DNA from: Mesostigma viride
Lineage: Eukaryota; Streptophyta; Mesostigmatophyceae; Mesostigmatales; Mesostigmataceae
Assembly (NCBI GenBank): GCA_009746045.1
Contig: RPFO01002174.1
Coordinates: 1 to 64,000, forward strand
DNA length: 64,000 bases
Direction of reading: 5' to 3'
The notes beneath the pieces are model-generated. The model made no database searches and was not told where the DNA came from. It saw only the letters and a program-made list of their open reading frames with translations. Below are positions 3,212 to 26,838 of the stretch, piece by piece. Numbering within the stretch: the first letter of the stretch is position 1; every line of letters begins with the position of its first letter. A program made the translations under genes and the position numbers.

Positions 3212-4262
3212 AGTTGTACAAGCTAGTGCTTATACTTTTTATGCGCAAGCCTTTTAGCTAAGGTTAACGCATATTCTTACATCCTGCGCAGGATGTAAGA
3301 ATATGCGTTAACCTTAGCTAAAAGGCTTGCGCATAAAAAGTATAAGCACTAGCTTGTACAACTTAAAACCTTTGCGCGTTGGGGCGGAATATTAAGCGGC
3401 TCCCTAACTAGGGTTTTACTTCCGCATCGAATTACTAATTCGATATCGAATTACTGATTCGATATGTATCCCGGGAAGGTCCGATATCTACCTCGCTAGG
3501 CGATTAATTAGGTCCGACCGGTGCCCCGGCGGATCCTCCCAAATAATCCCTACTCGGCACTGGCCCCACGAGGTTTCGAACCCATGACTTCCGCGCCGCG
3601 CCGGTTCTAAGTTGTACAAGCTAGTGCTTCTACTTTTTATGCGCAAGCCTTTTAGCTATAAGGTTAACGCATATTCTTACATCCTGCGCAGGATGTAAGA
3701 ATATGCGTTAACCTTAGCTAAAAGGCTTGCGCATAAAAAGTATAAGCACTAGCTTGTACAACTTAGAACCGGCGCGGCGCGGAAGCGCAGGATGTAAGAA
3801 TATGCGTTAACCTTATAGCTAAAAGGCTTGCGCATAAAAAGTATAAGCACTAGCTTGTACAACTTAGAACCGGCGCGGCGCGGAAGTCATGGGTTCGAAA
3901 CCTCGTGGGGCCAGTGCCGAGTAGGGATTATTTGGGAGGATCCGCCGGGGCACCGGTCGGACCTAATTAATCGCCTAGCGAGGTAGATATCGGACCTTCC
4001 AGGGATACATATCGAATCAGTAATTCGATATCGAATTAGTAATTCGATGCGGAAGTAAAACCCTAGTTAGGGAGCCGCTTAATATTCCGCCCCAACGCGC
4101 AAAGGTTTTAAGTTGTACAAGCTAGTGCTTATACTTTTTATGCGCAAGCCTTTTAGCTAAGGTTAACGCATATTCTTACATCCTGCGCAGGATGTAAGAA
4201 TATGCGTTAACCTTAGCTAAAAGGCTTGCGCATAAAAAGTATAAGCACTAGCTTGTACAACT
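3212..4262. mobile_element. Palindromic element 1 (AGTT...AACT, TSD ACACC)
   Basis: The element is bounded by ACACC direct repeats (3207-3211 and 4263-4267) inside the minisatellite. It consists of near-perfect ~152-bp palindromes (3212-3363, about 3612-3763, 4111-4262) and one half palindrome (about 3785-3862). They are separated by a ~248-bp spacer present once in each orientation. Each palindrome begins AGTTGTACAAG and ends with its complement. The palindrome edge carries TAGCTAAAAGG (for example 3715-3725), which fits the Pol III A-box. The spacer carries GGTTCGAAACC (3892-3902), which fits the B-box or tRNA T-loop. No open frame of note is present. The AGTT/AACT ends and 5-bp TSD match those of the copia elements in this window. 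Confidence 0.8.
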
Positions 4263-4575
4263 ACACCGTTGCGCGTTCCTGCTGCCCACTTCCCCCCACC
4301 GCCGTCATGTCCTTCCCCTTTGATGCCGCCACACCGTTGCGCGTTCCTGCTGCCCACTTCCCCCCCCGCCGTCATGTCCTTCCCCTTTGATGCCGCCACA
4401 CCGTTGCGCGTTCCTGCTGCCCACTTCCCCCCCACCGCCGTCATGTCCTTCCCCTTTGATGCCGCCACACCGTAACTTGCGCGTTCCTGCTGCCCACTTC
4501 CCCCCACCGCCGTCATGTCCTTCCCCTTTGATGCCGCCACACCGTTGCGCGTTCCTGCTGCCCACCTGTTGTTGC
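4263..4575. repeat. Minisatellite, ~68-bp unit, right block
   Basis: About four to five further copies of the unit seen at 2946-3211. The array ends about 40 bp before the DUS3 exon acceptor. Long open frames through it on both strands are repeat artefacts. Confidence 0.85.
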
Positions 4576-4614
4576 CCCCCAACACTGCCACGCGCTTCCC
4601 CCCCGACCCTGCAG

Positions 4615-4761
4615 GGTGCCGGGTCGGCGCTTCTCCTCAAGTCTCAGCGTATCGAGAACATCGTGCGCATCACGTCGCGCGTGCTGACCTGCCCCCTGAC
4701 GGTCAAGCTGCGCACGGGGTACTACGATCGGGAGAACACCGCGCACAAGCTGCTGCCGCAT
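4615..4761 (+). CDS. DUS3: tRNA-dihydrouridine(47) synthase (DUS3-like), one internal exon
   Basis: A 49-codon exon follows CCCTGCAG and ends before GTGCGT. It contains GAGSALLLKSQRIENIVR, then LTCPLTVKLRTG and AHKLLPH. In the DUS3 family (FMN-dependent reduction of U47 in tRNA) the matching stretch reads roughly GGGSAL...IV..M...L..PLTVK.RTG....N.AH.LLP, so the match is good across the whole exon. VK.RTG lies in the TIM-barrel core near the FMN and RNA sites. No other exon of this gene is visible: upstream is the minisatellite and downstream is LINE and LTR sequence, so the next exon would be beyond the 35 kb insertion or lost. It may belong to a live gene with a huge intron or be a relic. 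Confidence 0.65.
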
Positions 4762-4849
4762 GTGCGTGTGGCACTCCCCTTGTCCCATCGCAACCCACTG
4801 GCAAACTTGCGCGCGCCGGGCACCGGCGCGGCGCGACCCGGACCTATGT

Positions 4850-5036: not shown

Positions 5037-5695
5037 AGTTAGCATATTGGGGCACCAATGTGCTAGATGGATGCAGGATGAGGAGACCTTTCCAACGCCG
5101 TGTCAACCGCCTAGAACAGACAAGGGACTAGAAAGATATCAGGTCCCGAAGTACTGCCGACCGGCGGGCGAGGGCGGTGCATGCACTCTCAGGGCAGAGT
5201 GGACAGGACACGTGGCAGGCCGTGCCTGCACAGGCTTAGCCTGGACTCTCACGTGACTGGGACACAGTGTACTGAGGGCTCAACGGGCCTGTGGCTAGTA
5301 GAAGCCAGTAGCCAGCCAGCAGGTCTGCAAGGATGTAAGTCCATGCAGGACTGTGGCAGGTCCTGTGCTGTCCTAGACACAGGATAGCCAGAGGTTTCCT
5401 GTATGCTGCCTGCAACAAGGATGCAGGGCAGCGATACGAGGCTCTGGCAATGTAGCGTTGCCCAGCGTTGCTCATGACCGAGGAACAAGGATGGAACGAG
5501 GTTGCATATAGCTCGAGGCTCAATGAGGCAACGAGCGTCTTCACACACGAACCTTGGTCGTCACGACGAGTGGCGAGCCTATCGAGGGTCGTAGGCCTGG
5601 TGTGAGGATAAAGGTTGCTAGCCAGCAGCCTAGGGTCATTCCAGCCGGCAAGGACCAGGAGCTCACAAGCTCTGCTGACGAGTTGCTGCGCAAGT
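5037..5695 (+). repeat. 5' LTR of copia B
   Basis: Starts AGTTAGCATATTGG and ends GCGCAAGT. Compared by eye with the 3' LTR, it differs by about six substitutions and a 4-bp CTAG indel. The ends are not TG...CA. Confidence 0.85.
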
Positions 5696-5720
5696 CGTAC
5701 TATTGCTTCCAAGCGCTTTC

Positions 5721-6866
5721 ATGTCTGGTTCATCGTCAAGCAGCCACGGTGCTGGTGAGGCGAACGAGCAGAGAGACGCGCAAGCGTTTTTCCCCTACCG
5801 TAACCAAGCAAACGCTCCAACATTCGTGCAAGCGGCCTACGTAGCGAGGCACTTGGCAGAAGAGGGGTGGGTGGCGGTGAGTGGGGGAGGCAGCAGGCCA
5901 GCGGCGGCGGACCCGATTATACAGCGGGCTCGCGTCGTGATTTCTTCGGGTGAGACGGGGCGAGTGGCGGTGGAGGAGTTGGTGCGCATTCGTGACGCGC
6001 TAGCTGAAACTGCTAATCGTGTGGAGGTCGCCTACCAGGGCGCCCATATCACGCTAGCCGGTCTCGACCTAGCCAGGGAGGCGCTTAGCCAGATCGTGGC
6101 AACAGCGCTCGGCAGCACCAGACTGTTGTCACTGTTCAACCACTGGGTGGCGACAGCAGTGCTAGGAGAGGGGGTACCAGACGCCGACATAATCCGGAAC
6201 GCCCGAGCTCGCGAGGCGGTGAATCCTTGGAGCACGGCGGAGGTATTTGCTCAGACTATTGAGAATCTTGTTGCCATCCTTTTGCAAGAGTCGAGAGGGT
6301 ACGCGGACAGGTTCTTTATTACCACGCAGCCTTTCGGAGTGTACTCCAGGCTTGATACACCGAGGCCGGAAACCACCACTGCGTGGGGTCCGGAGGTGGA
6401 GATTGTCGCGAGTGTCGAGAAGACGCCTGAAGACGTCCATTTTGAGTGGACCGACACGCCAGAGGGCTCCGTCAAGCGCTCGGCCCAGCAGCAGATAAAC
6501 GAGGGCGACGGCACTACAGAAACCTACGAGGAGAGGCAGAGAGCTGATCTGCATATCCCTCGTGAGGTGACTCACGAGTACGATCGTTACGGCCGAGGCG
6601 AGCAGAACGAGCTTGTCGGCGGCGGTAAGCGGTGGGTACGCGATCTTGCTTGGCATCGCAACCCAGGTGAGACACAACATCCAGTCGAACGCAAGGAAGA
6701 CGGGCGACCTGTGACCTGCGTGCTGGGAGAGTTTAACCCAGACCTCCAGATTGTCGCAGCAGCAGCAGCCGCACCGGTTGCTGAGGGTGTTGAGGAGCGT
6801 CCAGACCGTGAGGAGGGGCAGGCGAGTGCTAGCCAGGAGGCGGCCTCGTCTGGAGTAAGTGCGTAA
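5721..6866 (+). CDS. Copia B upstream ORF (ORF0), unknown function
   Basis: A 381-codon ORF lies between the 5' LTR and gag. It starts at an ATG followed by a Ser-rich stretch. I recognise no domain. The middle is mostly alpha-helix-like and the last ~120 residues are polar, charged and Ala-rich. Copia A and copia C each carry an unrelated-looking ORF in the same position, so this is a positional feature of the family. It could be an N-terminal gag-like module or an accessory protein. Sequence similarity between the three is too weak to see by eye. Confidence 0.55.
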   Translation: MSGSSSSSHGAGEANEQRDAQAFFPYRNQANAPTFVQAAYVARHLAEEGWVAVSGGGSRPAAADPIIQRARVVISSGETGRVAVEELVRIRDALAETANRVEVAYQGAHITLAGLDLAREALSQIVATALGSTRLLSLFNHWVATAVLGEGVPDADIIRNARAREAVNPWSTAEVFAQTIENLVAILLQESRGYADRFFITTQPFGVYSRLDTPRPETTTAWGPEVEIVASVEKTPEDVHFEWTDTPEGSVKRSAQQQINEGDGTTETYEERQRADLHIPREVTHEYDRYGRGEQNELVGGGKRWVRDLAWHRNPGETQHPVERKEDGRPVTCVLGEFNPDLQIVAAAAAAPVAEGVEERPDREEGQASASQEAASSGVSA

Positions 6867-6920
6867 GCCTGAGTGGGTTCCAGCAGCCATATCTGCGTGT
6901 GTTGTCTGTAGTATTTTATA

Positions 6921-8280
6921 ATGCTTCGTAACACGCGCGGGAGCGGCAGCGGGAGCGGGGCGGGAGCGGGGGATGGCGGTGGTGAGGCAAGGGCAGATAC
7001 AGGAGGCCCCGTCAGCGTCGTGCCAGAGGGACAGGCAATCCCAACGGCAGAGGGCGCCAATGGCAGGAGGGCATCCAACCGGAAGAGGAAAGAGGTGGCA
7101 CAAGGGGAGGAGCGTGCGGGGTGGCCAACCGACGGCGTGTTGCTGACGGGGGAGGGCCATGATGATGCTGAACGTCAAGCACCTGGTAAGAGACCACGTG
7201 TGCCTGAGTCTGGTGTTCCTGCAGCTAGTGTTGCTGCGCCATTAGCACCTGTAGGAGCTGCAGTCATTGGCAGTGACCCTCGTGCTTTGCCTGGGACTAG
7301 ACCTCACATGAGTGCTGTGGCTGTGATGAATGGCCAGAAGCCTCTCAAGCCTCCTCCTGTGGGACAGGAAGAGCTAGACAAGTGGTTGGAGGATATGGAG
7401 CTAGTTTCTTGCTCTGTAGATCCCACTGTCAACCTTGTGCAGGTATTCCACACATCCACGACTAATAGGGATTCCAGTGGTGAGCGTGTGAGGGACAAGG
7501 CTAGGCAAGCTGTCAAGGACAAGCTGACTTGGTCTCAGTTCCTAGAGGGCCTACGTCAGGAGTTCTCTGATAAGGTACTCAACCTCACTAATCACTATAA
7601 ACTCAGCTATGATACCTTTGAGATCAAGGGCACGGTAGCTGAGGAGCTGCAACGGCTCCCACGCATCAGGGAGAAGGGAGCCAAGCATGGCTTCAATCTT
7701 ACTGATAGAGCAGTGGCAGATTACTTCCTGGATCGCATGGGGCTGAGTGTGGATGGGAGAAATGCAGCTAGGATGTTTGCTGATCAGACAGATGGGACAT
7801 GGACAGCCTTGCGAAGGGTTATTTTCAACATCCGTCCATCTGACAATGCTGCTTAATTGCAAGGCAATCCAGGTGACTGGTGCCCCTTCAGCCTCCGCTC
7901 ATCAGGTCCATGGTGATGCCCCTGGGCAGGGTGCTCAGGCAGATCCCAGGCCTAGTAGGCGTCAGAGGGCTAACAGGCGCAGGCAGAATGGAAACCAGGG
8001 TGGCAAGGGCCAGCAGCAGGGATCCAAAGGCAAGGGTCAGCAGCAGGCTGGTGGTCACCAGGGTGGTCAGCAGAACAAGGGTGGCCAAGGGCAAGGCAAG
8101 AGCCAGGGCCAGGGCACCCAGGCCAGTCAGAGCAGCCAGAACCAGGGTGGCCTGAAGAAGGCTGCTGCTGGGAAGGATGAGAAGTGCTTTGGATGTGGCA
8201 GGACGGGTCATTGGCGACGTGACTGCCCAGACCAGGCCAAGTCTGCTGGAGCAGGCTCTGGCCAGGTGGATAAGCCATGA
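6921..8280 (+). pseudogene. gag: Copia B gag with zinc knuckle, one frameshift
   Basis: The first part (6921-7856) is 311 residues: an Ala/Gly/Arg-rich start, then a capsid-like region with EELDKWLEDMEL and later DRAVADYFLDRMGLS. That region matches the position and style of copia C gag. The nucleocapsid part is in another frame (to 8280): a Gln/Gly/Lys-rich stretch, then the knuckle CFGCGRTGHWRRDC (CX2CX4HX4C). The frame change near 7850 is most simply one indel. The frame ends in TGA at 8278-8280, directly followed by CTT, and pol continues in the same frame. Confidence 0.75.
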
Positions 8281-9356
8281 CTTGATGTGTTGTCCCCTGT
8301 AAATAGTCAATCACCCCTAGTGGGACGAACAGTTGTACATAGTAATGGGGGTGTCCCTCTTGTGCAGCAGCAAGGGGTTGGGAATGATGAGGTGCTTCCA
8401 CTCAATGATTGCAATAACGCTGCTGCAGCAGTGGAATTCCCTGTGCCTGTGGCAGGTGCAGGGTCTCCAGTTGTTGGGGTTGACTCTGGGAGTCAAGCCG
8501 CCAGACTGGAAGGACCTGCAGCTTCTGTGGGAACCGGGGCTGGCTCTGGGAGCCGAGCTACCTTGGAGGAGGTCCCTGGAGCAAGAGAACAGCAGGTGGG
8601 TCGTGCTATCCCAAGCACACAGTCTTTGTCACGTTCCTCTCTGTGCAGCCAAGCTGACAGGGGGTTGAGCTGTGCTCAGGCTGGGAACACTCTACACCAT
8701 ATCTTTGGCCACTCTAAGCAGGCAGAGATGTTTGCTTGGAAGATTGGCAAGGAGCCTTTGCTTGAGGCCTGCAGTGCATCTGCTCAGAATTGTGTCTGTC
8801 AGGAGAATGCTGTTCGCCTCCCACAGTCCCATGCCAGAGAACCTGCTAGAGAGCGGGGGGATATCCAGGTGGACATCCAACACATCAGGGGCATGTATCT
8901 GTTGGTGGGGGTGGATAGGTTTAGCAGATATAGGTTGCTGACCATTCTACCTGGAATGCAGGAGCATCAGCTGTTGATGGGTCTCCAGTCTTTGTTGCCA
9001 GGCTTTGGGGTGTACACCAAGGTGCAAGCTGACTTGCAGTTTGACTGCTTGATCAAGCTGGCTGACCAGCTTCCTTGCAAGTTGGTGGTGGTCCCTAGGG
9101 AATGCCATGGGCAGCAGAGAGCTGTAGAGAGATCTATACGTGAAGTAAAAACAGTGGTGCTAGCAGCTAGTAGGAGTGTGCCTGTTGTGGCATCAGCTCT
9201 AGAGCGAGCAGCTTGGTGTAAGGGGATTGAGGAGCAGCTTAACCACAGGGTAACCTATTACTATGATGGTGTGGCAGTCTCTCCCCTGGCATTGCAGTTT
9301 GGTATGCTATCACAGGACGTGGTGGCAGCCTGCCTGAAGAAGGCAGACAGGGTGTT
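8281..9356 (+). pseudogene. pol: Copia B pol segment 1: GAG-pre-integrase and integrase core
   Basis: Open frame continuing from the gag UGA with no nearby ATG. It contains HHIFGHSKQAEMF (GAG-pre-integrase type), QVDIQHIRGMYLLVGVDRF (first catalytic Asp), VQADLQFD (second Asp) and RAVERSIREVK (Glu), as in rve integrases. There is no DTG or DSG protease motif between the zinc knuckle and the integrase, where copia normally has it. The frame breaks at GTGTT|C where the PAT-like element enters and resumes at 11319. Confidence 0.8.
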
Positions 9357-11318
9357 CATGTCCCACGTAGCTCCCACAAAAACCAGCATCTTCATTAAAA
9401 CAATAAGTGGAAGCATACATGTGACACTAATTGACATGCCCGGAGGCACGCCGTTCAAGGCCCTTCATGAAGTACGTTGCCCTAGAGGCAACCAAGACAC
9501 GGGTGGGTGGGTGGGGAGCAAAGAAAGAGGCCGACAAAACCAGCCAGAGCGGCTTTTAGTCGCAAAACCTCCCTTATCCCTAGCTAACTGACGTCATTAA
9601 ACCCTTATGTTTAGTGGATGCTAGTAAGACGCTAACCGTACAGACCGGGGGTAGAATATCCCGAATCTGCACGGCTAGTATTAAATAATGCGTAGGTTGT
9701 TCTTTTCAGGGGCACTGCACCTCACGCCCCGTTCCGCCCGGGTATAATCAACCCAAGCGCGGAACGCACATTTTATTTAATTCATTTTTCAACCATGCAC
9801 TATATTGCATCTACTAATCACAAAAGCTCTAGCCAAACAGCTACGAGTAAACACTACGACCTATAAGCCGCTCATCCAGCGGCCTCTTGTTCCCGCATTC
9901 ACGTATAGAAGAAACTCCGTTCAAAGAACCCCGATTCATGTCCCACGTAGCTCCCACAAAAACCAGCATCTTCATTAAAACAATAAGTGGAAGCATACAT
10001 GTGACACTAATTGACATGCCCGGAGGCACGCCGTTCAAGGCCCTTCATGAAGTACGTTGCCCAATCACCCCCGCCCTGGCTTTCCCTTGAAGCCGCACTC
10101 CACCTTGCTCGTTGTCACAAGTGACCGCCCTGCCGCAAAACGGGAGCCCCCCCACATCGGGAGGCGTGTGCCCGGCGGCTGTGGATGCGTGGCCAGGCCC
10201 AAAAAGGCCCAGCGCATTTGCACTGCGATTGCGCACGGCCAGCCTATCATGACCCCTCTCGGGGCCCCGAGTCGGTACCGCTATGGCCGTCTCCCCATAG
10301 ACCCGGGGTGCTTCGAGAAAAAACGTGGACCTAGCCCAGGCCCCGCCAGCCCGGATGCCCGAGGCCACAGCCCCAGGCACCTGGCTGAACGAGAGTCCGT
10401 TCAGCCAAGACCGCATTCCCCCCCGAGGTTTCTATGCGTGGGGAAAAAATTTCTAGCTTAGGCGCTTTTCCCATCGCCGTCCCCAGCCCCAACCACCCCC
10501 CCCTCGGCGGAAGGCAATTGCAAAGTTTGCTGGCCAGCAGCAATTTCCGAAGAAAAAGCCGCAGGCCGCGGACCGAGACACGGGTCGCCAGTGCCAGCCA
10601 TCCGGCTCCAACCCGGGGTGCAAGCATCCCCAGGTACGGAGCACCAGCTCGCGCACTGGGCCGACCAAGCGACAGTTGAGCACCTGTCACGGCATCCGGC
10701 CCACCAAAGACCCCAAGCTGGGGAAAAGGTGCGGACCGGAGGTAATCATTTTCTTTTCTTTTAGTTAACCGGGCGAGGAACTACGCCTGACCGGTTAACA
10801 ACTGGAAGTCTCACCACTGGCCAAGTGGCCAGTGCAACCAGTGCTTGGGATTTTGCTCCGCAGCACCCATAGCTGCGGCTGCCGCCGCAACGACAACGAG
10901 CAAAGAAAGAGGCCGACAAAACCAGCCAGAGCGGCTTTTAGTCGCAAAACCTCCCTTATCCCTAGCTAACTGACGTCATTAAACCCTTATGTTTAGTGGA
11001 TGCTAGTAAGACGCTAACCGTACAGACCGGGGGTAGAATATCCCGAATCTGCACGGCTAGTATTAAATAATGCGTAGGTTGTTCTTTTCAGGGGCACTGC
11101 ACCTCACGCCCCGTTCCGCCCGGGTATAATCAACCCAAGCGCGGAACGCACATTTTATTTAATTCATTTTTCAACCATGCACTATATTGCATCTACTAAT
11201 CACAAAAGCTCTAGCCAAACAGCTACGAGTAAACACTACGACCTATAAGCCGCTCATCCAGCGGCCTCTTGTTCCCGCATTCACGTATAGAAGAAACTCC
11301 GTTCAAAGAACCCCGATT
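9357..11318 (+). mobile_element. PAT/DIRS-like non-autonomous element 1 (split direct repeats)
   Basis: Arranged A1-B1-A2-B2. A1 is 9357-9482 and A2 is 9937-10062 (126 bp each); B1 is 9516-9936 and B2 is 10898-11318 (421 bp each). Between A1 and B1 lie 33 bp, between B1 and A2 nothing, and between A2 and B2 835 bp. Split direct repeats are the hallmark of PAT-type tyrosine-recombinase retrotransposons. The host frame is restored exactly by removing the element, with no target duplication beyond a shared TT. No RT, RNase H or recombinase is encoded. Open frames in the 835-bp core are Pro/Gly/Arg-rich and occur on both strands, so I treat them as non-coding. Confidence 0.8.
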
Positions 11319-11902
11319 CTCCAGGTTGAGGCGTAAGGACAAGGGCTGGAAAATGCTGAGGCCCCAGGTGGGACTGAGGGTCAGGATGTGGAAGGAACCG
11401 TCATTACCAGGCAAGCGTGGCAAGTGGCAAGATGGGCTGGTAACCCATGTGGAAGAGACTAACCATTCTTGTCTGGTGGCTTTGGAGAGTAATCCCAAGC
11501 ACATGTGCAGGCTATCCTGGGCTCACGTCAAAGAGAGAAGGCCAACTGCAATCTGGCCTGAAGACGGCCCTGATCCTCCCTTGGAGGGAGATGAGCAGGA
11601 TGAGAGCCAGGCAGTAGATGCTAACCCGCCATGCTTGGATTATGGTCTGTCCTGGATGGATGAGGGTGAGCAGGAGTCTGCTGAGACGTCTGTCACAAGG
11701 CCACAGGTGGCCAGGGCTGCACCACAGTCCAGGGGGCTGCTGATGGCGGACATCATTCGAGCTCTGCAGAACAGCAAGCGTGATCCCAAGGTATCTAAGC
11801 TCACGGGATGGGGGTCATGTGGGGCACCAGCACTAGAGGTGGATACCAACTCACAGGTGTCCATTCTAAGGGTAGAGGATGCTGCAGGCTTGCAGTGGTC
11901 AT
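11319..11902 (+). pseudogene. pol: Copia B pol segment 2: post-integrase domain and start of protease-like domain
   Basis: Resumes with KDKGWKMLRPQVG and HMCRLSWAHVK, the post-integrase SH3/chromo-like region also seen in copia A and C. It reaches LEVDTNSQVSIL, the presumed protease active-site strand (DTN, not DTG). It is then cut at GTCAT by palindromic element 2. Confidence 0.75.
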
Positions 11903-12852
11903 AGTTATTATAAATAGTGACGTGAACTTAACGCGGAATTGATACCGGCGAGTGGTTTTCGCCGGATAAATAGTGACGGACCTGATTGCCAAGTGGCAAA
12001 AAGGTTCCGTCACTATTTATAATAGCTAAAACGTCGTAGTGTGGGGGTCGATATCTATCGTACCGCTGATGCCTACTGTACTGCAGTACCGAATCTCGCC
12101 TTAGCGATATTCCAACCGGGCATATTTTCCCTTCTGGCACTTTCGTTTGGCCTTCTGGTATCAAATCCTTCCGGTATCCGGAAATACCCGTGTCACCACA
12201 GGGATTCGAACCCCCGACTTACGAGGTCTTAGTTATTATAAATAGTGACGGAACCTTTTTGCCACTTGGCAATTAGGTCCGTCACTATTTATCCGGCAAA
12301 AACCACTCGCCGGTATCTATTCCGCGTTAAGTTCACGTGAACGTGGCGCGGAATTGATACCGGCGAGTGGTGTTCGCCGGATAAATAGTGACGGACCTGA
12401 TTGCCAAGTGGCAAAAAGGTTCCGTCACTATTTATAATAACTAAGACCTCGTAAGTCGGGGGTTCGAATCCCTGTGGTGACACGGGTATTTCCGGACACC
12501 GGAAGGATTTGATACCAGAAGGCCAAACAAAAGTGCCAGAAGGGAAAATATGCCCGGTTGGAATATCGCTAAGGCGAGATTCGGTACTGCAGTAGGCATC
12601 AGCGGTACGATAGATATCGACCCCCACACTACGACGTTTTAGTTATTATAAATAGCGACAGAACCTTTTTGCCACTTGGCAATCAGGTCCGTCACTATGT
12701 ATCCGGCGAAAACCACTCGCCGGTATCAATTCCGCGCCACGTTCACGTGAACTTAACGCGGAATCGATACCGGCGAGTGGTTTTCGCCGGATCAATAGTG
12801 ACGGACCTGATTGCCAAGTGGCAAAAAGGTTCCGTCACTATTCATAATAACT
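11903..12852. mobile_element. Palindromic element 2 (AGTT...AACT, TSD GTCAT)
   Basis: Flanked by GTCAT at 11898-11902 and 12853-12857 and inserted in copia B pol. Inverted repeats of the type AGTTATTATAAATAGTGACG alternate with a spacer present in both orientations. An A-box-like TGGCAAAAAGG (12409-12419) is followed 41 bp later by GGTTCGAATCC (12461-12471). On the same strand GTCACTA and TGGTGAC can pair around the T-arm, hinting at a tRNA-like fold without a D-arm. No coding capacity is visible. Confidence 0.8.
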
Positions 12853-15770: not shown

Positions 15771-17768
15771 AGTTACGTTAAATAGTGCCGGAACCTTTTG
15801 CCGCCTGAGGCAAATCGGTCCGTAACACTATTTTGCCCGGAATAACCACTTCCGAGCACCCAAGTTAATTCGGCCGAATTAACTTGGGTGCTCGGAAGTG
15901 GTTATTCCGGGCAAAATAGTGTTACGGACCGATTTGCCTCAGGCGGCAAAAGGTTCCGGCACTATTTAACGTAACTAAAACCTGGCCTCGTGGAGGGGGG
16001 ACGAAGAGCCCGAGACATCCGCCTAGGCCGCTGAGCACGCACCACTAAATGCGCCGGAGCTGCCTCAGTGAGGATTCGAACCCCTGACCTCCAAGGTGCA
16101 CAGGTTTTAGTTACGTTAAATAGTGCCGGAACCTTTTGCCGCCTGAGGCAAATCGGGCCGGAACACTATTTTGCCCGGAATAACCACTTCCGAGCACCCA
16201 AGTTAATTCGGCCGAATTAACTTGGGTGCTCGGAAGTGGTTATTCCGGGCAAAATAGTGTGACGGCCCGATTTGCCTCAGGCGGCAAAAGGTTCCGGCAC
16301 TATTTAACGTAACTAAAACCTGGCCTCGTGGAGGGGGGACGAAGAGCCCGAGACATCCGCCTAGGCCGCTGAGCACGCACCACTAAATGCGCCGGAGCTG
16401 CCTCAGTGAGGATTCGAACCCCTGACCTCCAAGGTGCACAGGTTTTAGTTACGTTAAATAGTGCCGGAACCTTTTGCCGCCTGAGGCAAATCGGGCCGGA
16501 ACACTATTTTGCCCGGAATAACCACTTCCGAGCACCCAAGTTAATTCGGCCTTACGTTAAATAGTGCCGGAACCTTTTGCCGCCTGAGGCAAATCGGGCC
16601 AGAACACTATTTTGCCCGGAATAACCACTTCCGAGCACCCAAGTTAATTCGGCCGAATTAACTTGGGTGCTCGGAAGTGGTTATTCCGGGCAAAATAGTG
16701 TTCCGGCCCGATTTGCCTCAGGCGGCAAAAGGTTCCGGCACTATTTAACGTAACTAAAACCTGGCCTCGTGGAGGGGGGACGAAGAGCCCGAGACATCCG
16801 CCTAGGCCGCTGAGCACGCACCACTAAATGCGCCGGAGCTGCCTCAGTGAGGATTCGAACCCCTGACCTCCAAGGTGCACAGGTTTTAGTTACGTTAAAT
16901 AGTGCCGGAACCTTTTGCCGCCTGAGGCAAATCGGGCCGGAACACTATTTTGCCCGGAATAACCACTTCCGAGCACCCAAGTTAATTCGGCCGAATTAAC
17001 TTGGGTGCTCGGAAGTGGTTATTCCGGGCAAAATAGTGTTCCGGCCCGATTTGCCTCAGGCGGCAAAAGGTTCCGGCACTATTTAACGTAACTAAAACCT
17101 GTGCACCTTGGAGGTCAGGGGTTCGAATCCTCACTGAGGCAGCTCCGGCGCATTTAGTGGTGCGTGCTCAGCGGCCTAGGCGGATGTCTCGGGCTCTTCG
17201 TCCCCCCTCCACGAGGCCAGGTTTTAGTTACGTTAAATAGTGCCGGAACCTTTTGCCGCCTGAGGCAAATCGGGCCGGAACACTATTTTGCCCGGAATAA
17301 CCACTTCCGAGCACCCAAGTTAATTCGGCCGAATTAACTTGGGTGCTCGGAAGTGGTTATTCCGGGCAAAATAGTGTGACGGACCGATTTGCCTCAGGCG
17401 GCAAAAGGTTCCGGCACTATTTAACGTAACTAAAACCTGTGCACCTTGGAGGTCAGGGGTTCGAATCCTCACTGAGGCAGCTCCGGCGCATTTAGTGGTG
17501 CGTGCTCAGCGGCCTAGGCGGATGTCTCGGGCTCTTCGTCCCCCTCCACGAGGCCAGGTTTTAGTTACGTTAAATAGTGCCGGAACCTTTTGCCGCCTGA
17601 GGCAAATCGGGCCGGAACACTATTTTGCCCGGAATAACCACTTCCGAGCACCCAAGTTAATTCGGCCGAATTAACTTGGGTGCTCGGAAGTGGTTATTCC
17701 GGGCAAAATAGTGTGACGGACCGATTTGCCTCAGGCGGCAAAAGGTTCCGGCACTATTTAACGTAACT
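15771..17768. mobile_element. Palindromic element 3: seven-palindrome array (TSD GCTAC)
   Basis: Flanked by GCTAC at 15766-15770 and 17769-17773 in copia A gag. Palindromes of ~206 bp lie at 15771-15976, 16109-16314, 16447-16551 (half), about 16552-16755, 16888-17093, 17226-17431 and 17563-17768. Spacers of ~132 bp lie between them; the first three read in one direction and the last two in the other. Spacers start AAAACC and end GGTTTT and carry GGTTCGAATCC (for example 17120-17130). At the 17.0 kb junction, GCCTCAG (17053-17059), CGGCAAAAGG and the T-arm followed by CTGAGGC (17134-17140) could form a tRNA-shaped 89-nt unit with a 7-bp acceptor stem. Confidence 0.85.
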
Positions 17769-17773
17769 GCTAC

Positions 17774-18167
17774 CCACGCAGGTGGGCGTGCCCAGGGGGG
17801 CTCCAGGGCGTCTGAGGCTGAAAGAAGCCAAGGAGGGCGTGGGGGCAACCATAACAAGCGGAAGGCCAACCATTCACCCGACCCTGACGGGCAATCACAT
17901 GCCAAGTCGGTGTTCAGGAGGGTGGGTGGCAAGCCCAAGCCGGGTAACGCGCCTGACAACGGGGGAGGAGGCCAGGGCAAGTCAAAGATCCAGTGCTACC
18001 TGTGCAAGGGGTGGGGGCACATCAAGAAGGAGTGTCCCAGCTTCAAGAAGACCCAGGGCCAGGGCAGCAACAAGAACAACAACAACAAAAACAACAACAA
18101 CAAGAACAAGTCCCAGGCAGGCCAGCCTTCAAAGGGCAGTCAACAAGAAGAAAGCAAGGAGCAATGA
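17774..18167 (+). pseudogene. gag: Copia A gag, nucleocapsid part with zinc knuckle
   Basis: Resumes after the palindrome array with a Gly/Arg/Gln-rich basic stretch. It includes the knuckle CYLCKGWGHIKKEC (CX2CX4HX4C) and an Asn/Lys repeat tail. It ends at TGA 18165-18167, which is followed by CTG. The frame stays open past the UGA to about 18308. Confidence 0.75.
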
Positions 18168-19760
18168 CTGTCTGAGGCAACCCCTACACACCTTAATTCA
18201 CCCAAGGGGGAGGCCAGGTGCTCCAATGCAGATTTTATATCTGGGCAACAAGAGGGTGATCTCCAGGTTCAGGTGGCCCCAGGTCACCTGGAGAGGTACA
18301 GGTTCCTATGAAGACGTCCTTGACAGCTGGTGCAGCTGTAAGAATGTCTGACCCCATGCATCCTCGTGCTGGGCACGAGGGTGGACCTCTCATTTTGAGA
18401 GAAACCAATGTACAACCACAGAGGGGTGTGAAGGCCTCTGGTGGTATGCATGTGGTCCCTGCTGGCGGTCCAGGTGTTGGGCATGAGCAGGGTGACTCAG
18501 GCTCTGAGTCAGAACAGGATGGAAGTCAGCATGGTGATGCTGGACAACCTGACAGCACAGTCCTGACTGTGCCAGGGACTGCTTCCTCTGTGTACCAGGA
18601 GTTGGGTGCCCGAATCCACAACATGTTTGGGCATGCCACTTCTCTGTCAAACAACTTTGCCTTCCGTATGGGCAGGGCACCCCTTCTTAAGGCGTGTCAG
18701 CAAGCTGCCTCACGGTGTAAGTGCCAGTTGTCCTCCAACAAGCCCAGGAAATCACATGCCAAAGCTCTACCTCAGAGCATTGGTGATCTGCAGTGTGATA
18801 TCCAACACATCAGGGGCATGCAACTGTTGGTGTGCGTGGACAGGTACACAAATACAAGGTGCTAGAGCATTTACCTTCTATGAAGAACAGGTACTTGCTG
18901 GCTGCCCTGCAGAATGTAAGAGCCAAGTTTCCTACCACAAGGATCCAGGTGGACATGCAGTTTCAGCATCTCAAGGGTGATCCTACCCTTCCTGAGTTGC
19001 TGGTTACACCTAGGGAGGCTCATGGGCAGCAGGGTGCTATCGAGAGGGCAATCCAGGAGGTCAAGAAATTGATCATCTCTGAAGACTGGGTACCCTTGTC
19101 TGCACCTGCACTTGTCAGGAGTGCATGGCTGAGGAACGTGGAGCAGCAGCTGAACAGCAGGGTTAACTTCTACTATGATGGAGTTGCTGTCAGCCCAATG
19201 GGTCTATATCATGGCCTGTGCCCACCACATGTGCTGGAGGGCTGGAAACATGCTGCACATGTCACCTTTGCCAAGCTGAGGGAGAAGGACCGGGGTTGGA
19301 AGATGCTGGAGCCACAAGTGGGTCAGAAGGTCCTAGCTTGGAAGGAACCTAGCCTTTATGGCAAACGTGGTAGCTGGAGTCCTGGGGTGGTTACCCAGGT
19401 TGATGAAGCTAGCCACGCATGCTTGGTCAGCATGGAGGACGAACCAAAGCATGTACACCGGCTGAGTTGGTCATATGTCAAGCCTAACCTGATGAATGAG
19501 GGCAGTCAGGCACAAGGCTCACAGGATCTGCAGGATTTTCAGGTCCCAAGTGACATCACTGACGCAACGACCACATCTGTTGCAGGGGAATCTGTCAGCC
19601 CTGGCCAGGTTGCAGAGGTACTTGTTGAACAGGCTGCAAGGTCAACAGCTGGGGAGTCAACTGTCAAGCCCAAGGCACTAACCAAGCCCAGGGGGACAAG
19701 TTTGGCTGGATTGATTGGGGCTCTACAAAGGCCAAGAAGCAGCCCAAGGTAGCCAAGCTC
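18168..19760 (+). pseudogene. pol: Copia A pol: integrase region, frameshifted
   Basis: Three frames are needed. Readthrough frame to about 18308, then 18308-18850 with HNMFGHATSLSNNF and the first integrase Asp (CDIQHIRGMQLLVCVDRY), then 18850-19752 with VDMQF, GAIERAIQEVKK and the post-integrase KDRGWKMLEPQVGQK. Another indel near 19745 leads into the protease-like frame. The shifts look like random indels because they fall inside conserved motifs. Confidence 0.75.
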
Positions 19761-21790
19761 AGGTGGCATGGCAATCTGGGGCTGGACACTGCCTTAGAGG
19801 TAGACACTAATTCTCAGGTTTCCATCATTGGGACCAGGGCTGCAGCAGGGTACAGCATGACTGAACCCAGCTATCAGTTTGTGTCTGACTTCAGTGGCGG
19901 GGTACACGTGAAGGTACTGGGTGAGGTATTCATTCCTATCCTTGGACAGGACACTGCTTTTTGTGTCTTGGAGGGCTATCAAGGACCTGCTCTTCTGGGG
20001 CAGAATTTCCTATGCCAGGATGGGGTAGTGATCACGTCCTCTCTCCTGACTAAGGAAGGGGCTGGTCAGGTCCCACTGATTAATTTCAGGACCACTCACC
20101 TATCACGTGCAGTAACCAGGACGGTTAAGCGTGTGCAAGTGTGCCAGGGGCAGGAGCCCTTGGTTGATGACCTCATATTGCCAGCTGCTAGTCATCCAAG
20201 CAGTTTGGGCATTGGTCCTCACTCACTTGCTGGACACAGCCCTATCAACTACCAAGGCCTGGTGAAGCTCATGTCCTCTCCCATTATGTGTCCCCAGGTC
20301 ACACTGGGTCTGATTAAATCTGGGGAGGACTGGATCTCCAAGAAATGCGTGGAACCTGTCAATGACCTGCCTCCTGCACGACGTCTACTCAAGCTCAAGT
20401 TTGTCATCAAGATGAAGGAGGTGGACGGGGTCAAGGTACCACATGTCAGGCCAGTGCTGAATGAGTTCAAGGGTACTGGTGAGTGCACTGCTGAGGAGTT
20501 GTATACCCCTGGCATGTTGCATGACACTTGGAGGCTGCTGCTGTGTGTATTTCTAGGCCTTCTCAACAAGGGCTTGGACTATGGCTCAGTGGTGGTAGAC
20601 TTCAAGAGGGCATTTCTGGAGGGGGATGCAGATGTGGCACAGGAAAAGTGGGAGGGCAAGACGCCTTTCTATGTTAGGGTGCCTGCTGTATGGAAAAGGG
20701 ACATCCACACTGAGTTCCTTAAAATCCTCAAGGGCCTGGAGGGCCTGAGGTCAAGTCCAATAATCTGGAGGGAGACTCTCAACCGTTTCCTGAAGGAGCA
20801 TTGCAACTTGAAGGTCTCTCCTGTAGACCCCTGTCTGTTTCTGGGGCAATGGGAAGGCCTACCAGTGTATGCTTCGCTGCACGGGGATGACCTACATCTG
20901 ATAGCTCCCACGTCGTGGCTTAAGGAGCTGATCTCCATCATTAAGTCCAAGTTTCCTCTGGGTAGGGAGCAATGGCAGGTGGAGAATGAGCCTCTGCTGT
21001 TTGTGGGCATGGAGGCCACACTGGTGAAGAAGGGGGGGAGTGGCGTATGCTGCTGGTGGGGGGCAATGATTATCAAGAGACCCTCATTAGCAAGCTTCCT
21101 CCAACCATCACACAGGCACTGTGTCCCATGGTGAGGGGCATGGTTGCTTGGGTGGCAGGCATTTCCAGGCCAGACCTTATGGTCATAGCCAGGTTGCCTG
21201 ATGACATGCTGGTGGAGCTAGGGTCTGCCAAGGTGGCTGATCAGGTCAGGGCTTCATCTGGCATTCTGTTGTCTGCAGTGGATTTATCACAACCCATTTG
21301 CATGGAGCTGTATGTGGATAGCTCAATGGACAGCAGGCAGGTCTCCAAGGTCAGGGGCAGGGCTGCAGGGCTCTTTGTGCTCAGACAGGAAGGCCTGGGG
21401 AGTTTGGTGAGCTGGTTTAGTCGCCTGCACAAACGGGTGGCTGTCAGCAGTGATGTGGCAGAATGCAGGGCTATTTGTGAAGGCATTCACACAAGCCTTT
21501 ATCTGAAGGAGTTGCTTCATCAGATGACTTCTAACACTCCTTGGCCACTTCAGGTTACCACTCTTCTAAAAACAGACTCCATGGGGATGGTGCAGTTTGT
21601 GCACAGGCAGATGGCCAGAAGTAGGGACTTGGATTATCTCCTTCTTAAGGAGTTGTCCTCCTTGGCCAATATTGAGCATATCCCTGGGGTTGACAATCCT
21701 GCTGATGCTTTGACCAAGCTAGTGCAGAAGGCAGCAGTGCAATACAAGGTTCTTCAGTCTCTGATGGACCCATCTCAGCAAGCTGTCTAA
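19761..21790 (+). pseudogene. pol: Copia A pol: protease-like domain, RT and RNase H
   Basis: Contains LEVDTNSQVSIIG, GEVFIPILGQ and ALLGQNFL (retropepsin-like, DTN), then the RT with VVVDFKRAFLEGD, LEGLRSSPIIW and YASLHGDDLHLI. After a frameshift near 21045 comes RNase H with YVDSSMDSRQVSKVRGRAAG, AECRAICEGI, TDSMGMVQFVH and NPADALTKL. The domain order is integrase, protease, RT, RNase H. Confidence 0.8.
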
Positions 21791-22740
21791 GCTGGTGCAT
21801 GGTTATAGGGCATTGGAGAGCAGATTGTGTGGTAGTGTCAGCATTGTGACTGGCATAATACCTGTATTTTAGTCTGTACTAAGGCTCATGGACCATGGTA
21901 CACTCACTCTGATTTTAATCAGGATACAGCCAGGTTTTGGCTGGGGTTCATGCTGTTGACTACACAAGGTTGACAGGTCCATTACAGACCATGTATTCTA
22001 TTTTAAAAGAAATGTATATTTGTACATACCTCTCACAATGGTCTGGGAACCTTTATTCTGGGGTTTATAGGGCGGGGTTCGATTCCCTGGTATTATGTTT
22101 CTACAAGCTGGCCTGTTCAGGTGTTTGCCTGTTCAGACTTCCCTAGTTCCCCAGGGCAGGATTTAATTGTTGCCTATGTGTTTCATTTTGTCATTTGTTT
22201 GCTGTGGCAGTTTACCATCTGGCAAGTAGACGGGCGCCGTAAGACGGGCGCCAATAGACCCCTGTTGAGAGAATGACAGGCAAACTATTGTAATACGCCT
22301 TACTTTGTCAAGTGGTATTTTAATTGTCATGGATTTATTGTACTTATATTGAATATGTACTGGGTTTTATGGGATTAGTATCTGGGATTAATGTAACTCA
22401 CCGCCAGAAGGTCATTGTACTGGAGGCTCTACCGAGGTGATGGGATTAATTCCTGGAGAAGACCTCATAGAATTAACCTGTATGTATTTAATTTTGTGTG
22501 TTCCTAATATCTGGTGGTACTCTGTAATGCCACTTCCATAGGTTTTTATCCATTTCTCATGGAATGGTTTTCCCTGTGGCAGATCTGTTTCTTTTCCAGT
22601 TCCTTAAAAGAAAGGGCTGGGGGAATGGCAATGGCCATTAAAGACATCTGTTCAAGCTTCAAGCTGGAGTGAAGGACATTTCAAGCTACTTCAAGGGTCC
22701 CTGGCAGGGGATGTGATCCCTAAAGAAAAGAAGGGATTGG
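21791..22740 (+). promoter_or_regulatory. Copia A 3' UTR with tRNA T-arm mimic and polypurine tract
   Basis: At 22073-22089 the sequence CGGGGTTCGATTCCCTG forms a 5-bp stem (one G-U) with a 7-base TTCGATT loop, exactly a tRNA T-arm. Directly before LTR2 a purine run (AAAGAAAAGAAGGGATTGG) is the likely plus-strand primer site. Confidence 0.7.
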
Positions 22741-23357
22741 AGTTAACGTAAAGGATTTACGTTAGATGGATAGAGATTGTTACGCTCTTTCCAACGGCAC
22801 CTTGAACGCCTCATTTGGTTAAGGAACGTAAAAGTTATGACGTTTCCTAGGCTGTGCCGACAGTACCCGGCGCGCCACTGTGGGCGCGTACGGACACAGG
22901 ATGTACAAGTGTCACTTTGATAGTCCGCAGGACGTTGACAGGACTTGTACAGGACTTGATGGTCAATTGATAGGTAGGCGCGCTGTAGCGCGCCAGGACC
23001 TATGAGACAATTGATGCTGAGTAGTGTACGGATAGGTCCACAGGACTAGCCGTATGGACAATTGATAGATCTCCGCGCCAAAGGCGTGCCAGAGTCTGTG
23101 TAATCAATTGATTGACAGTTCAGCTGTGACAGTGCAGCTGAATACTTGGACGCGTCCCTAACAACCTATATGTGTGACTTGGTCGCACCGGGACGCTAGT
23201 TCTTGCGTGCACGTTCTCTTGGCACTGCGACCCTGTCGTCTGTGCTGCGTGCAGTCTTGGAAGTGACGTGACTTACGTCTGTGTTCCCTGTTATTAATAA
23301 AGGCAACATTCCTGCAAGAACCATGGCGGAATTCGTGGCATTCACTCTCATACAACT
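22741..23357 (+). repeat. LTR2 of copia A complex
   Basis: AGTTAACG...TACAACT, 617 bp. It differs from LTR1 and LTR3 at several shared sites and in its last ~25 bp, so it comes from a different copy. Confidence 0.85.
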
Positions 23358-24071
23358 GAAACCCTCATTAGCAAGCTTCCTCCAACCATCACACAGGCAC
23401 TGTGTCCTATGGTCAGGGGCATGGTTGCTTGGGTGGCAGGCATTTCCAGGCCAGACCTTATGGTCATAGCCAGTTTGCCTGATGACATGCTGATGGAGCT
23501 AGGGTCTGCCAAGGTGGCTGATCAGGTCAGGGCTTCATCTGGCATTCTGTTGTCTGCAGTGGATTTATCACAACCCATTTGCATGGAGCTGTATGTGGAT
23601 AGCTCAATGGACAGCAGGCAGGTCTCCAAGGTCAGGGGCAGGGCTGCAGGGCTCTTTGTGCTCAGACAGGAAGGCCTGGGGAGTTTGGTGAGCTGGTTTA
23701 GTCGCCTGCACAAACGGGTGGCTGTCAGCAGTGATGTGGCAGAATGCAGGGCTATTTGTGAAGGCATTCACACAAGCCTTTATCTGAAGGAGTTGCTTCA
23801 TCAGATGACTTCTAACACTCCTTGGCCACTTCAGGTTACCACTCTTCTCAAAACAGACTCCATGGGGATGGTGCAGTTTGTGCACAGGCAGATGGCCAGA
23901 AGTAGGGACTTGGATTATCTCCTTCTTAAGGAATTGTCCTCCTTGGCCAATATTGAGCATATCCCTGGGGTTGACAATCCTGCTGATGCTTTGACCAAGC
24001 TAGTGCAGAAGGCAGCAGTGCAATACAAGGTTCTTCAGTCTCTGATGGACCCATCTCAGCAAGCTGTCTAA
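23358..24071 (+). pseudogene. pol: Truncated second copy of copia A pol (RNase H end)
   Basis: Starts abruptly at the equivalent of 21077 and is almost identical to 21079-21790, through YVDSSMD, TDSMGMVQFVH and NPADALTKL to the stop. It lacks everything upstream. Confidence 0.85.
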
Positions 24072-25027
24072 GCTGGTGCCTGGTTATAGGGCATTGGAGA
24101 GCAGATTGTGTGGTAGTGTCAGCATTGTGACTGGCATAATACCTGTATTTTAGTCTGTACTAAGGCTCATGGACCATGGTACACTCACTCTGATTTTATT
24201 CAGGATACAGCCAGGTTTTGGCTGGGGTTCATGCTGTTGACTACACAAGGTTGACAGGTCCATTACAGACCATGTATTCTATTTTAAAAGAAATGTATAT
24301 TTGTACATACTTCTCACAATGGTCTGGGAACCTACATACTGGGGTTTATAGGGCGGGGTTCGATTCCCTGGTATTATGTTTCTATAAGCTGCATGGCCTG
24401 TTCAGGTGTTTGCCTGTTCAGGCTTCTCTAGTTCCCCAGGGCAGGATTTAATTGTTGCCTATGTGTTTCATTTTGTCATTTGTATGCTGTGGCAGTTTAC
24501 CATCTGGCAAGTAGACGGGCGCCGTAAGACGGGCGCCAATAGACCCCTGTTGAGAGAATGACAGGCAAACTATTGTAATACGCCTTACTTTGTCAAGTGG
24601 TATTTTAACTGTCATGGATTTATTGTACTTATATTGAATATGTACTGGGTTTTATGGGATTAGTATCTGGGATTAATGTAACTCACCGCCAGAAGGTCAT
24701 TGTACTGGAGGCTCTACCGAGGTGATGTGATTAATTCTTGGAGAAGACCTCATAGAATTAACCTGTATGTATTTAATTGTGTGTTTCTAATATCTGGTGG
24801 TACTCTGTAATGCCACTTCCATAGGTTTTTATCCATTTCTCATGGAATGGTTTTCCCTGCATGTGGCAGATCTGTTTCTTTTCCAGTTCCTTAAAAGAAA
24901 GGGCTGGGGAAATGGCAATGGCCATTAAAGACATCTGTTCAAGCTTCAAGCTGGAGTGAAGGACATTTCAAGCTACTTCAAGGGTCCCTGGCAGGGGATG
25001 TGATCCCTAAAGAAAAGAAGGGATTGG
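24072..25027 (+). promoter_or_regulatory. Second copy of copia A 3' UTR with T-arm mimic
   Basis: Near-duplicate of 21791-22740 with a few indels. The T-arm mimic at 24354-24370 and the purine tract before LTR3 are both kept. Confidence 0.7.
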
Positions 25028-25641
25028 AGTTAACGTAAAGGATTTACGTTAGATGGATAGAGATTGTTACGCTCTTTCCAACGGCACCTTGAACGCCTCA
25101 TTTGGTTAAGGAACGTAAAAGTTATGACGTTTCCTAGGCTGTGCCGACAGTACCCGGCGCGCCACTGTGGGCGCGTACGGACACAGGATGTACAAGTGTC
25201 ACTTTGATAGTCCGCAGGACGTTGACAGGACTTGTACAGGACTTGATGGTCAATTGATAGGTAGGCGCGCTGTAGCGCGCCAGGACCTATGAGACAATTG
25301 ATGCTGAGCAGCGTACGGATAGGTCCACAGGACTAGCCGTATGGACAATTGATAGATCTGCGCGCCAAAGGCGTGCCAGAGTCTGTGTAATCAATTGATT
25401 GACAGTTCAGCTGTGACAGTGCAGCTGAATACTTGGATGCGTCCCTAGCAACCTATATGTGTGACTTGGTAGCACCGGGACGCTAGTTCTTGCGTGCACG
25501 TTCTCTTGGCACTGCGACCCTGTCGCCTGTGCTGCGTGCAGTCTTGGAAGTGACGTGACTTACGTCTGTGTTCCTTATTCATAATAAAGGCAACATTCCT
25601 GCAAGAACCATGGCGGAATTCTGTGCAACCCTCTCACAACT
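25028..25641 (+). repeat. LTR3 of copia A complex
   Basis: AGTTAACG...CTCACAACT, 614 bp, followed by the target duplication GTATC. It is the true partner of LTR1. Confidence 0.85.
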
Positions 25642-25955
25642 GTATCAGGGGCCTGCCATTCTAGGTCAGAACTTCTTGTGCTTGCCAGGGGTGAGGATAT
25701 CCTCTGAGGAGCTAGCATTAGAAGGGCAGGGCCGCCTTCCCTTGCAGAGATATCGCTACTCCCAGGGTCTTAGTGTGGCTGTGAGGGCTGTGAGGGGTCA
25801 AGAAGCAGAGGGTCCTGATACCAAGGAGCCCATTGCTGGGGACCTGCTGATCCTCCCTACTACGTTTGACCCACGTGAGTTGGGTGTGCAGAGGTACCAG
25901 ATCCCAGGAACGAGTCCTGTACCTTGGCGCAAGCTAGTGGAGATGATGCAAAGCC
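25642..25955 (+). pseudogene. pol: Copia B pol segment 4: protease-like domain end to start of RT
   Basis: Continues segment 3 after copia A with YQGPAILGQNFLC (retropepsin C-terminal ILG motif), then a linker. It is cut at AAGCC by palindromic element 4. Confidence 0.75.
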
Positions 25956-26838
25956 AGTTAGGTTAAATAGTGCCGGAACCTTTTTGCCGTTGGGGCAAAT
26001 CGGGCCGGAACACTATTTTGCCCGGAATAACCACTTCCGAGCACCCAAGTTAATTCGGCCGAATTAACTTGGGTGCTCGGAAGTGGTTATTCCGGGCAAA
26101 ATAGTGTTCCGGCCCGATTTGCCCCAACGGCAAAAAGGTTCCGGCACTATTTAACCTAACTAAAACCTGGCCCCGTGGAGGGGGAGTGGAATAGACCTGG
26201 AGACAACCGCCTGGGCTACTGCACGCAAATGATATTGCGCCGGAACTGTCTCTGGCAGGTTTCGAACCCCTGACCTCCAAGGTGCACAGGTCTTAGTTAG
26301 GTTAAATAGTGCCGGAACCTTTTTGCCGTTGGGGCAAATCGGGCCGGAACACTATTTTGCCCGGAATAACCACTTCCGAGCACCCAAGTTAATTCGGCCG
26401 AATTAACTTGGGTGCTCGGAAGTGGTTATTCCGGGCAAAATAGTGTGACGGACCGATTTGCCTCAGTGGGCAAAAGGTTCCGGCACTATTTAACGTAACT
26501 AAAACCTGTGCAACTTGGAGGTCAGGGGTTCGAATCCTCACTGAGGCAGCTCCGGCGCATTTAGTGGTGCGTGCTCAGTGGCCTAGGCGGATGTCTCGGG
26601 CTCTTCGTCCCCCCTCCACGAGGCCAGGTTTTAGTTACGTTATATAGTGCCGGAACCTTTTGCCCACTGAGGCAAATCGGTCCGTCACACTATTTTGCCC
26701 GGAATAACCACTTCCGAGCACCCAAGTTAATTCGGCCGAATTAACTTGGGTGCTCGGAAGTGGTTATTCCGGGCAAAATAGTGTGACGGACCGATTTGCC
26801 TCAGTGGGCAAAAGGTTCCGGCACTATTTAACGTAACT
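25956..26838. mobile_element. Palindromic element 4 (AGTT...AACT, TSD AAGCC)
   Basis: Flanked by AAGCC at 25951-25955 and 26839-26843 in copia B pol. It has three palindromes and two different spacers. The left palindrome differs in the GGCAAA region from the array at 15.8-17.8 kb; the right ones are close to that array. The B-box GGTTCGAATCC occurs near 26527-26537 on the plus strand, and a second spacer carries it on the minus strand. GCCTCAG (26460-26466) and CTGAGGC (26541-26547) can pair around it. Confidence 0.8.

Follow-up and report, generated by a model that had tools for sequence, protein, structure and literature searches.

Palindromic, apparently non-coding elements with a tRNA-type promoter box in Mesostigma viride: inverted termini and a possible copia-dependent fold-back cycle

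Introduction

The first 64,000 nucleotides of contig RPFO01002174.1 from the streptophyte Mesostigma viride (assembly GCA_009746045.1, forward strand), called the window throughout, contain four insertions, E1 to E4, in which long palindromes (P) alternate with short spacers (S+ or S-, according to strand). What kind of mobile element are they, and how might they multiply? A preliminary description took them for satellites similar to terminal-repeat retrotransposons in miniature (TRIMs), with the palindromes in the part of long terminal repeats (LTRs) and with insertion by the integrase of copia elements. Judged from their sequence, we consider them non-autonomous elements with inverted palindromic termini, which would pass through an RNA of the RNA polymerase III (Pol III) type, self-primed fold-back copying and insertion by a copia integrase. 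We assign this reading a probability of about 0.45.

Results

The orientation of the terminal palindromes was read in family 2 only (the family of E2). The arms of P are not identical in this family: close to the centre they fall into two types, a and b, from which the orientation of each copy can be read. All 13 elements with both terminal P intact, including all four monomers, carry arm type a outermost on both sides; the terminal P are therefore inverted, and the terminal repeats of this family are terminal inverted repeats (TIRs), not LTRs. Four elements with a damaged terminal P were omitted from the 13: E2, L054 and L079, in each of which the right P is b/a, and L080, where it is a/a. 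The central P was seen in both orientations, which in a symmetric dimer depends merely on the strand read. Junctions between P and spacer read AACT/(T)ARRACC and GGTTTT/AGTT, or variants of these. Copia-type strings for a primer-binding site (PBS) or a polypurine tract (PPT) were absent from these junctions, PBS for other tRNA primers lying outside this test; neither the copia B PPT agaagggattgg nor its post-LTR sequence cgtattactcgc was found there. Off the junctions, E1 contains CGAATTAC, part of the copia C post-LTR sequence, or its copia A/B counterparts twice per strand, and a single PPT-like string is present in E2.

Each of the 11 spacers in the window holds one tRNA-type B box, GGTTCGAANCC (11 found, 0.04 expected), which lies in the spacer at its centre-facing end and not within P. 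In all six representatives of families and subfamilies, the first TTTT downstream of the B box sits on the border of the following P. Pol III is known to use B boxes, A boxes and T-runs, and the spacer stretch can be read, from its sequence, as the putative 3' half of a tRNA-like sequence. The B box in every spacer and the divergent layout had been missed in the preliminary description. A B box of tRNA origin and a T-run at the end are also found in tRNA-derived short interspersed nuclear elements (SINEs), which differ in having no terminal inverted repeats and in their variable target-site duplications (TSDs) and tails; the elements described here do not show the SINE features of missing terminal repeats, variable TSD and 3' tail. 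A working tRNA gene was discarded as an explanation, with none reported by ARAGORN at default settings and T stems that seem broken; the many tRNAs called at relaxed settings were of low quality, had long "introns" spanning the inverted repeats and were left unused. Rfam microRNA matches within P probably reflect the palindrome itself. The hallmark of retrozymes is a hammerhead ribozyme in the terminal repeats, and no hammerhead family was among the 37 Rfam matches to the window at E<=5.

Spacers had been described as lying in either orientation. Both strands do occur, in an order that is not random: the usual arrangement is (P S-)n P (S+ P)m, most often P S- P S+ P, in which the same, B-box end of the spacer faces one central P. 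Using a junction pattern built solely from the P end and the B box, 889 + 899 = 1,788 matches were obtained in the whole assembly, and none with the reversed pattern as control. The layout was tallied for the first 100 of these 1,788 places, which fall into 65 clusters (29 -+, 33 single, 2 --+, 1 -++). Among the 35 adjacent spacer pairs in this sample, 32 were divergent, 3 tandem and none convergent. This tally was preferred to the locus counts for family 1, which are skewed to dimers, the query being E1 itself. Most spacers thus run outward from a central P, with their B-box end nearest to it; divergent and never convergent pairs are expected if fold-back occurs at one end of the RNA. The pattern also revealed a further family, from which 8 loci were fetched. 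Where the B boxes diverge (five loci), the layout is in every case P S- P S+ P, the TSD measures 5 bp and the ends are AGTTAGG...CCTAACT, one letter being altered near one end of L089. Two of the five (L086, L088) are each a single complete palindrome of about 1.09 kb, and the other three contain broken P copies. The remaining loci, L084, L085 and L087, are relatives in decay, and none of them has a clean TSD.

All four window insertions lie where the preliminary description had placed them, bounded by AGTT and AACT and by the TSDs listed in Table 1, and the palindromic make-up was likewise borne out, with near-perfect P of 152-212 bp. A total of 14 zero-loop palindromes with a score of at least 25 was found in the 64 kb, every one within E1-E4. 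The elements measure 883-1998 bp (two of the four exceed 1000 bp), and they appear non-coding as proposed, the longest stop-free stretch being 117 codons, with no domain search made of these stretches. E1 and E3 each contain one extra half P that ends near the palindrome centre, while most of the outer arm is gone from the leftmost P of E2. E1 sits inside a minisatellite (2949-4601) with units of about 70 bp. Further copies of the window region occur on contigs C1106 and C1101 of the same assembly (G000), both with E1 and E2 and the former also with E3; they are haplotigs or duplications.

The 440-Mb assembly was searched with E1, one E2 unit and one E3 unit. For each query 40 candidates were scored, drawn from 259 (E1), 314 (E2) and 985 (E3) first-look candidates; these yielded at least 160, 238 and 224 alignments, respectively, which are not numbers of copies, as a single element yields several. 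The window elements belong to at least four multi-copy families. Excluding copies of E1 itself, among them L009 and L010 (again the E1 insertion), 71 fetched loci (L011-L081) were laid out. By script, AGTT and AACT were found at both ends, with flanks, in 63 of the 71 clusters, and of these 63, 54 have a 5-bp TSD, 3 one of 8-9 bp (tandem repeats), 1 a 4-bp TSD and 5 none. L015 and L030 are one insertion, leaving 62 distinct by a flank test that used short flanks only for part of the loci. Deviating ends or TSD lengths, named in the preliminary description as an outcome that would refute it, were thus exceptions only among these loci. Reciprocal empty sites, with the flanks joined, were found for L012 (98.5% identity over 395 nt, gapless) and L023 (95.8% over 430 nt, one gap); together with the 5-bp TSDs they support the mobility of the copies. 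At the site common to L015 and L030, four P are present in one copy and three in the other: S-P units were lost or gained in place. Whole monomers P S P with a 5-bp TSD were fetched for family 2 (four), family 1 (four: L040, L044, L045, L046) and family 3 (L071). In two further monomers, L026 and L042, an inverted host flank of 32 bp and 17 bp, respectively, replaces the normal TSD, perhaps through aberrant one-ended joinings. Target-site composition showed a weak bias across 66 sites. A scan of viral contigs with the P-arm pattern gave no match.

Comparing spacers within and between elements, differences of 0.0074 versus 0.0197 were found for family 1 and of 0.0023 versus 0.0094 for family 2 (0 of 2000 permutations in each case). 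Such within-element identity can be explained by copying from one template per jump or by gene conversion after insertion. In the 82 P copies from 32 loci of family 1, a variant of one arm was mirrored in the other in 97 cases, where independent arms would give 25.7. Private variants present in each P and in both arms mark L012, L035, L039, L041 and L045, while L011, L034, L037 and L047 have no such variants throughout. Of the 15 breakpoints of partial P copies, nine are no more than 6 nt away from the centre of the palindrome, where 1.03 would be expected. This clustering suggests that hairpins or cruciforms were opened at their tips, either in the cell or in the intermediate.

The copia elements named A and C in the preliminary description were said to share ends and TSD length with the palindromic elements. 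All three LTR pairs of the window (A, B and C) do start with AGTT and have 5-bp TSDs, and C ends with AACT as stated; pair A, a putative copia element, ends with AAGT, so that AACT ends are present in two of the three pairs (B and C). Among 20 fetched copia B LTRs, 19 start with AGTT and one with AGTA, and all 20 end with AACT, the end having been located by seeking AACT near the aligned end, followed by internal or host sequence; the copia TSD length was read from the window copies only. The reverse transcriptase (RT) of copia B gave a weak RVT_2 match (29.1 bits, under the cut-off of 31.6), and copia C is 66% identical to B at the DNA level over 1.4 kb overlapping the RT region of B. The polyprotein of copia C had one relative in a protein search and no match in solved structures. 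By eye, a short hairpin follows directly after AGTT in all three LTR families (5037-5070, 12978-12998, 30977-30999), with a possible kinship to P, and the copia C LTR holds at 31252-31300 the sequence AAATAGTGAC...GTGACTATTT, which resembles the arm motif of E2-E4.

Discussion

The proposed cycle would begin with Pol III starting in P near the B-box end of S, crossing S and terminating at T-runs that lie beside the following P or inside it. The reverse transcriptase of copia would copy this RNA, and the 3' end of the complementary DNA (cDNA), which bears a palindrome, would fold back and prime the second strand. Second-strand synthesis would restore the missing P arm and, continuing through S, may produce the head-to-head form P S- P S+ P. 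Copying by fold-back would thereby explain why the dimers diverge, how palindromes are rebuilt and why the termini are inverted. A copia integrase would then join the AGTT/AACT ends to the target, as the common ends suggest; insertion leaves a TSD of 5 bp around almost every complete copy, and at one site, that of L015 and L030, S-P units were lost or gained in place, presumably via recombination between P copies. The integrase step is better supported than the fold-back step. Insertion by the copia integrase, one part of the preliminary description, stays plausible from the AGTT/AACT ends and the TSD length common with the neighbouring copia; the TRIM-like reading that went with it is not supported. 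For non-canonical ends, four letters plus TSD length appear to be strong evidence of a link with copia, short of proof. It is possible, if doubtful, that the elements represent a new class of retroelement without LTRs or a tRNA primer, made of a Pol III-transcribed arm and spacer, in which hairpin self-priming rebuilds both ends and halves and a borrowed copia integrase needs only the AGTT/AACT end. One P arm and one spacer would then hold nearly all information, and the ends would be copied much like those of hairpin-telomere viruses.

Several observations speak against this proposed cycle. Only four end letters are common with copia. A terminator at the spacer end would omit the second P, which the model leaves unsolved. 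A boxes are merely suggestive: three of six representatives have one without mismatch (block-shuffle p 0.04-0.10), the other three one with 1 mismatch (p 0.44-0.59). Given the change of units between L015 and L030, dimers might be inherited as dimers, and monomers might be deletions. Among the fetched loci, L030, L033 and L011 are tandem forms, and the composite L081 contains one convergent junction. Spacers of family 3 are not homogeneous within an element (0.0088 versus 0.0089 between elements, 962 of 2000 permutations), and gene conversion after insertion could itself yield the identity seen in the other families. Family 1 has 41 one-armed variants. In family 2 the arms of one P differ by 0.0384, compared to 0.0282 between elements; these arm differences lie within about 20 nt of the centre, most other variants being common to both arms, so that this central part was not rebuilt.

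The alternative that survives best, possible and still less probable than the cycle above, is a foldback-type DNA transposon. P would be its TIR, a transposase not seen here would make the 5-bp TSDs, repair of fold-back or cruciform structures would homogenise the arms, and the tRNA piece would be a passenger or have another role. The inverted terminal P of family 2 (13 of 13) and the junctions devoid of copia-type PBS/PPT are in its favour, and breakpoints at the palindrome centre (9 of 15) are what cleavage of cruciforms or hairpins would produce. Many complete elements are inverted repeats as a whole, like the foldback elements FB and Galileo, in which the bulk of a non-coding element consists of long inverted repeats. 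However, this explanation accounts neither for AGTT/AACT ends and a TSD length equal to those of the local copia, nor for the B box in each window spacer, nor for the prevalence of divergent dimers, both ends being alike. In the window, to which the look for a linked DNA transposase was confined, none was seen, and the repeats at its sole transposase-like locus (DUF7869, 41.9-50.4 kb) are unrelated. Galileo is reportedly placed in the P-element superfamily by its transposase, and its TSD length differs from the 5 bp seen here. In contrast to foldback elements, each arm is here itself built of palindromes, and the internal unit bears a B box.

Less likely by far is a TRIM-like LTR retroelement with palindromic LTRs, moved by copia via ordinary tRNA-primed reverse transcription. 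Shortness, the missing coding region, the fixed TSD, the copia-like AGTT...AACT ends and 5 bp, and the P S P monomers with a 5-bp TSD in families 1, 2 and 3 would suit it. Against it stands the inversion of the terminal repeats in four of four readable monomers and 13 of 13 elements, which contradicts it for family 2, where direct terminal repeats are not found; the ends of the internal region show no copia-type PBS or PPT, and head-to-head dimers are not a product of LTR strand transfer. Neither the role of the palindromes as LTRs nor the label TRIM-like is hence supported. Promoters derived from small RNAs are known in the TRIMs Helenus, Ajax and Cassandra, that of Helenus being derived from tRNA (PMC10886601). 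According to that paper, Helenus/TRIMp3 (Kojima 2024) resembles the present elements in being short and non-coding, in the 5-bp TSD of its fungal and plant families and in its presumed mobilisation by autonomous LTR elements, Copia among them. Its tRNA-derived Pol III boxes A and B have as counterparts here the B box of all 11 window spacers, weak A boxes and a tRNA match under the Rfam gathering score. It has, however, LTRs that contain the tRNA-like sequence, along with PBS and PPT, whereas the window elements have inverted palindromic terminal repeats (family 2), the B box in the spacer and mostly head-to-head units. Cassandra is similar as an LTR-type mobile element with a Pol III promoter from a small RNA gene; it differs in its 5S origin, its LTRs and in that no palindromic termini are described in PMC10886601, the main text of which does not contain the string "palindrom".

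Satellites of Penelope-like elements are very improbable. For Penelope elements with pseudo-LTRs (pLTRs), passages of PMC3846280 report direct and inverted terminal repeats, mostly head-to-head, with palindromes at the junction, and the authors propose self-priming for these copies, a precedent for the fold-back step. Penelope nevertheless encodes an RT, and its TSDs are there given as 8-10 bp or absent, in contrast to the mostly 5-bp TSDs, the AGTT/AACT ends and the lack of long frames here; constant AGTT ends suit an integrase. An assembly artefact is hardly credible: chimeric reads might arise from perfect palindromes, and L026 and L042 show short inverted flanks in place of a normal TSD, but dozens of sites with distinct flanks and TSDs, reciprocal empty sites and the same layout across families of unlike sequence argue against it.

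In a literature search of titles and abstract openings, subscription papers being outside it, the combination of palindromic termini, a Pol III box and divergent units was not found described. If copia-mediated fold-back propagation is true, an integrase can act on DNA without LTRs, PBS and PPT, with the palindrome substituting for the strand-transfer machinery; a SINE-like promoter, Penelope-like self-priming and copia integration would be united in one element, and long near-perfect palindromes would persist in the genome by being rebuilt at each jump. Even for a DNA transposon, the B box kept in spacers of unlike families and the divergent layout require explanation. With 1,788 junction matches in one assembly, the group is big enough for direct tests.

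Further features of the window

Table 1. Coordinates of the palindromic elements, their parts and the LTR pairs in the window
Feature	Position	Strand	Remarks
E1 (family 1)	3212..4262	.	P S- P [half P] S+ P; TSD ACACC
E1 terminal P	3212..3363	.	perfect, 152 bp
E1 spacer S- B box	3572..3582	-	GGTTCGAAACC
E1 central palindrome	3610..3763	.	slightly imperfect
E1 additional half P	3785..3864	.	begins at palindrome centre
E1 spacer S+	3865..4110	+	B box 3892-3902; TTTT ahead of next P
E1 terminal P	4111..4262	.	perfect, 152 bp
LTR pair A	5037..40402	+	putative copia; LTRs 5037-5695 and 39740-40402; AGTT..AAGT; TSD GTTAT; nested insertions
E2 (family 2)	11903..12852	.	damaged P, S-, P, S+, P; TSD GTCAT
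E2 spacer S- B box	12202..12212	-	
E2 central palindrome	12231..12442	.	212 bp, arm types a/b
E2 spacer S+ B box	12461..12471	+	
E2 right terminal palindrome	12641..12852	.	arm types b/a
Copia B	12975..25641	+	candidate helper type; LTRs 12975-13588 and 25028-25641; AGTT..AACT; TSD GTATC
E3 (family 3)	15771..17768	.	P S- P S- halfP P S- P S+ P S+ P; TSD GCTAC
E3 spacer 1 B box	16072..16082	-	
E3 spacer 2 B box	16410..16420	-	
E3 half P	16447..16551	.	stops 2 nt beyond palindrome centre
E3 spacer 3 B box	16851..16861	-	
E3 spacer 4 B box	17120..17130	+	
E3 spacer 5 B box	17458..17468	+	
E4 (left part: diverged subfamily of family 3)	25956..26838	.	P S- P S+ P; TSD AAGCC
E4 spacer S- B box	26258..26268	-	
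Weak full-length Rfam tRNA match over E4 P arm and spacer	26460..26548	+	22.9 bits (gathering 29)
E4 spacer S+ B box	26527..26537	+	
Copia C	30973..38452	+	LTRs 30973-31606 and 37825-38452; AGTT..AACT; TSD CCCAG

Two 2-kb segments (9355-11318 and 27099-29066) are 99.2% identical, with sub-repeats rearranged. The gene for the DUF7869 protein (44555-46276, minus strand) lies amid repeats of the CCGTTGCA type (41944-50370), perhaps another transposon, and these repeats are unlike P. Exon-like pieces at 59806-63841 on the plus strand resemble a putative gene for chaperonin CCT theta. A U2 spliceosomal RNA gene, a sign of a eukaryotic genome, was identified at 57694-57891 on the minus strand (158 bits).

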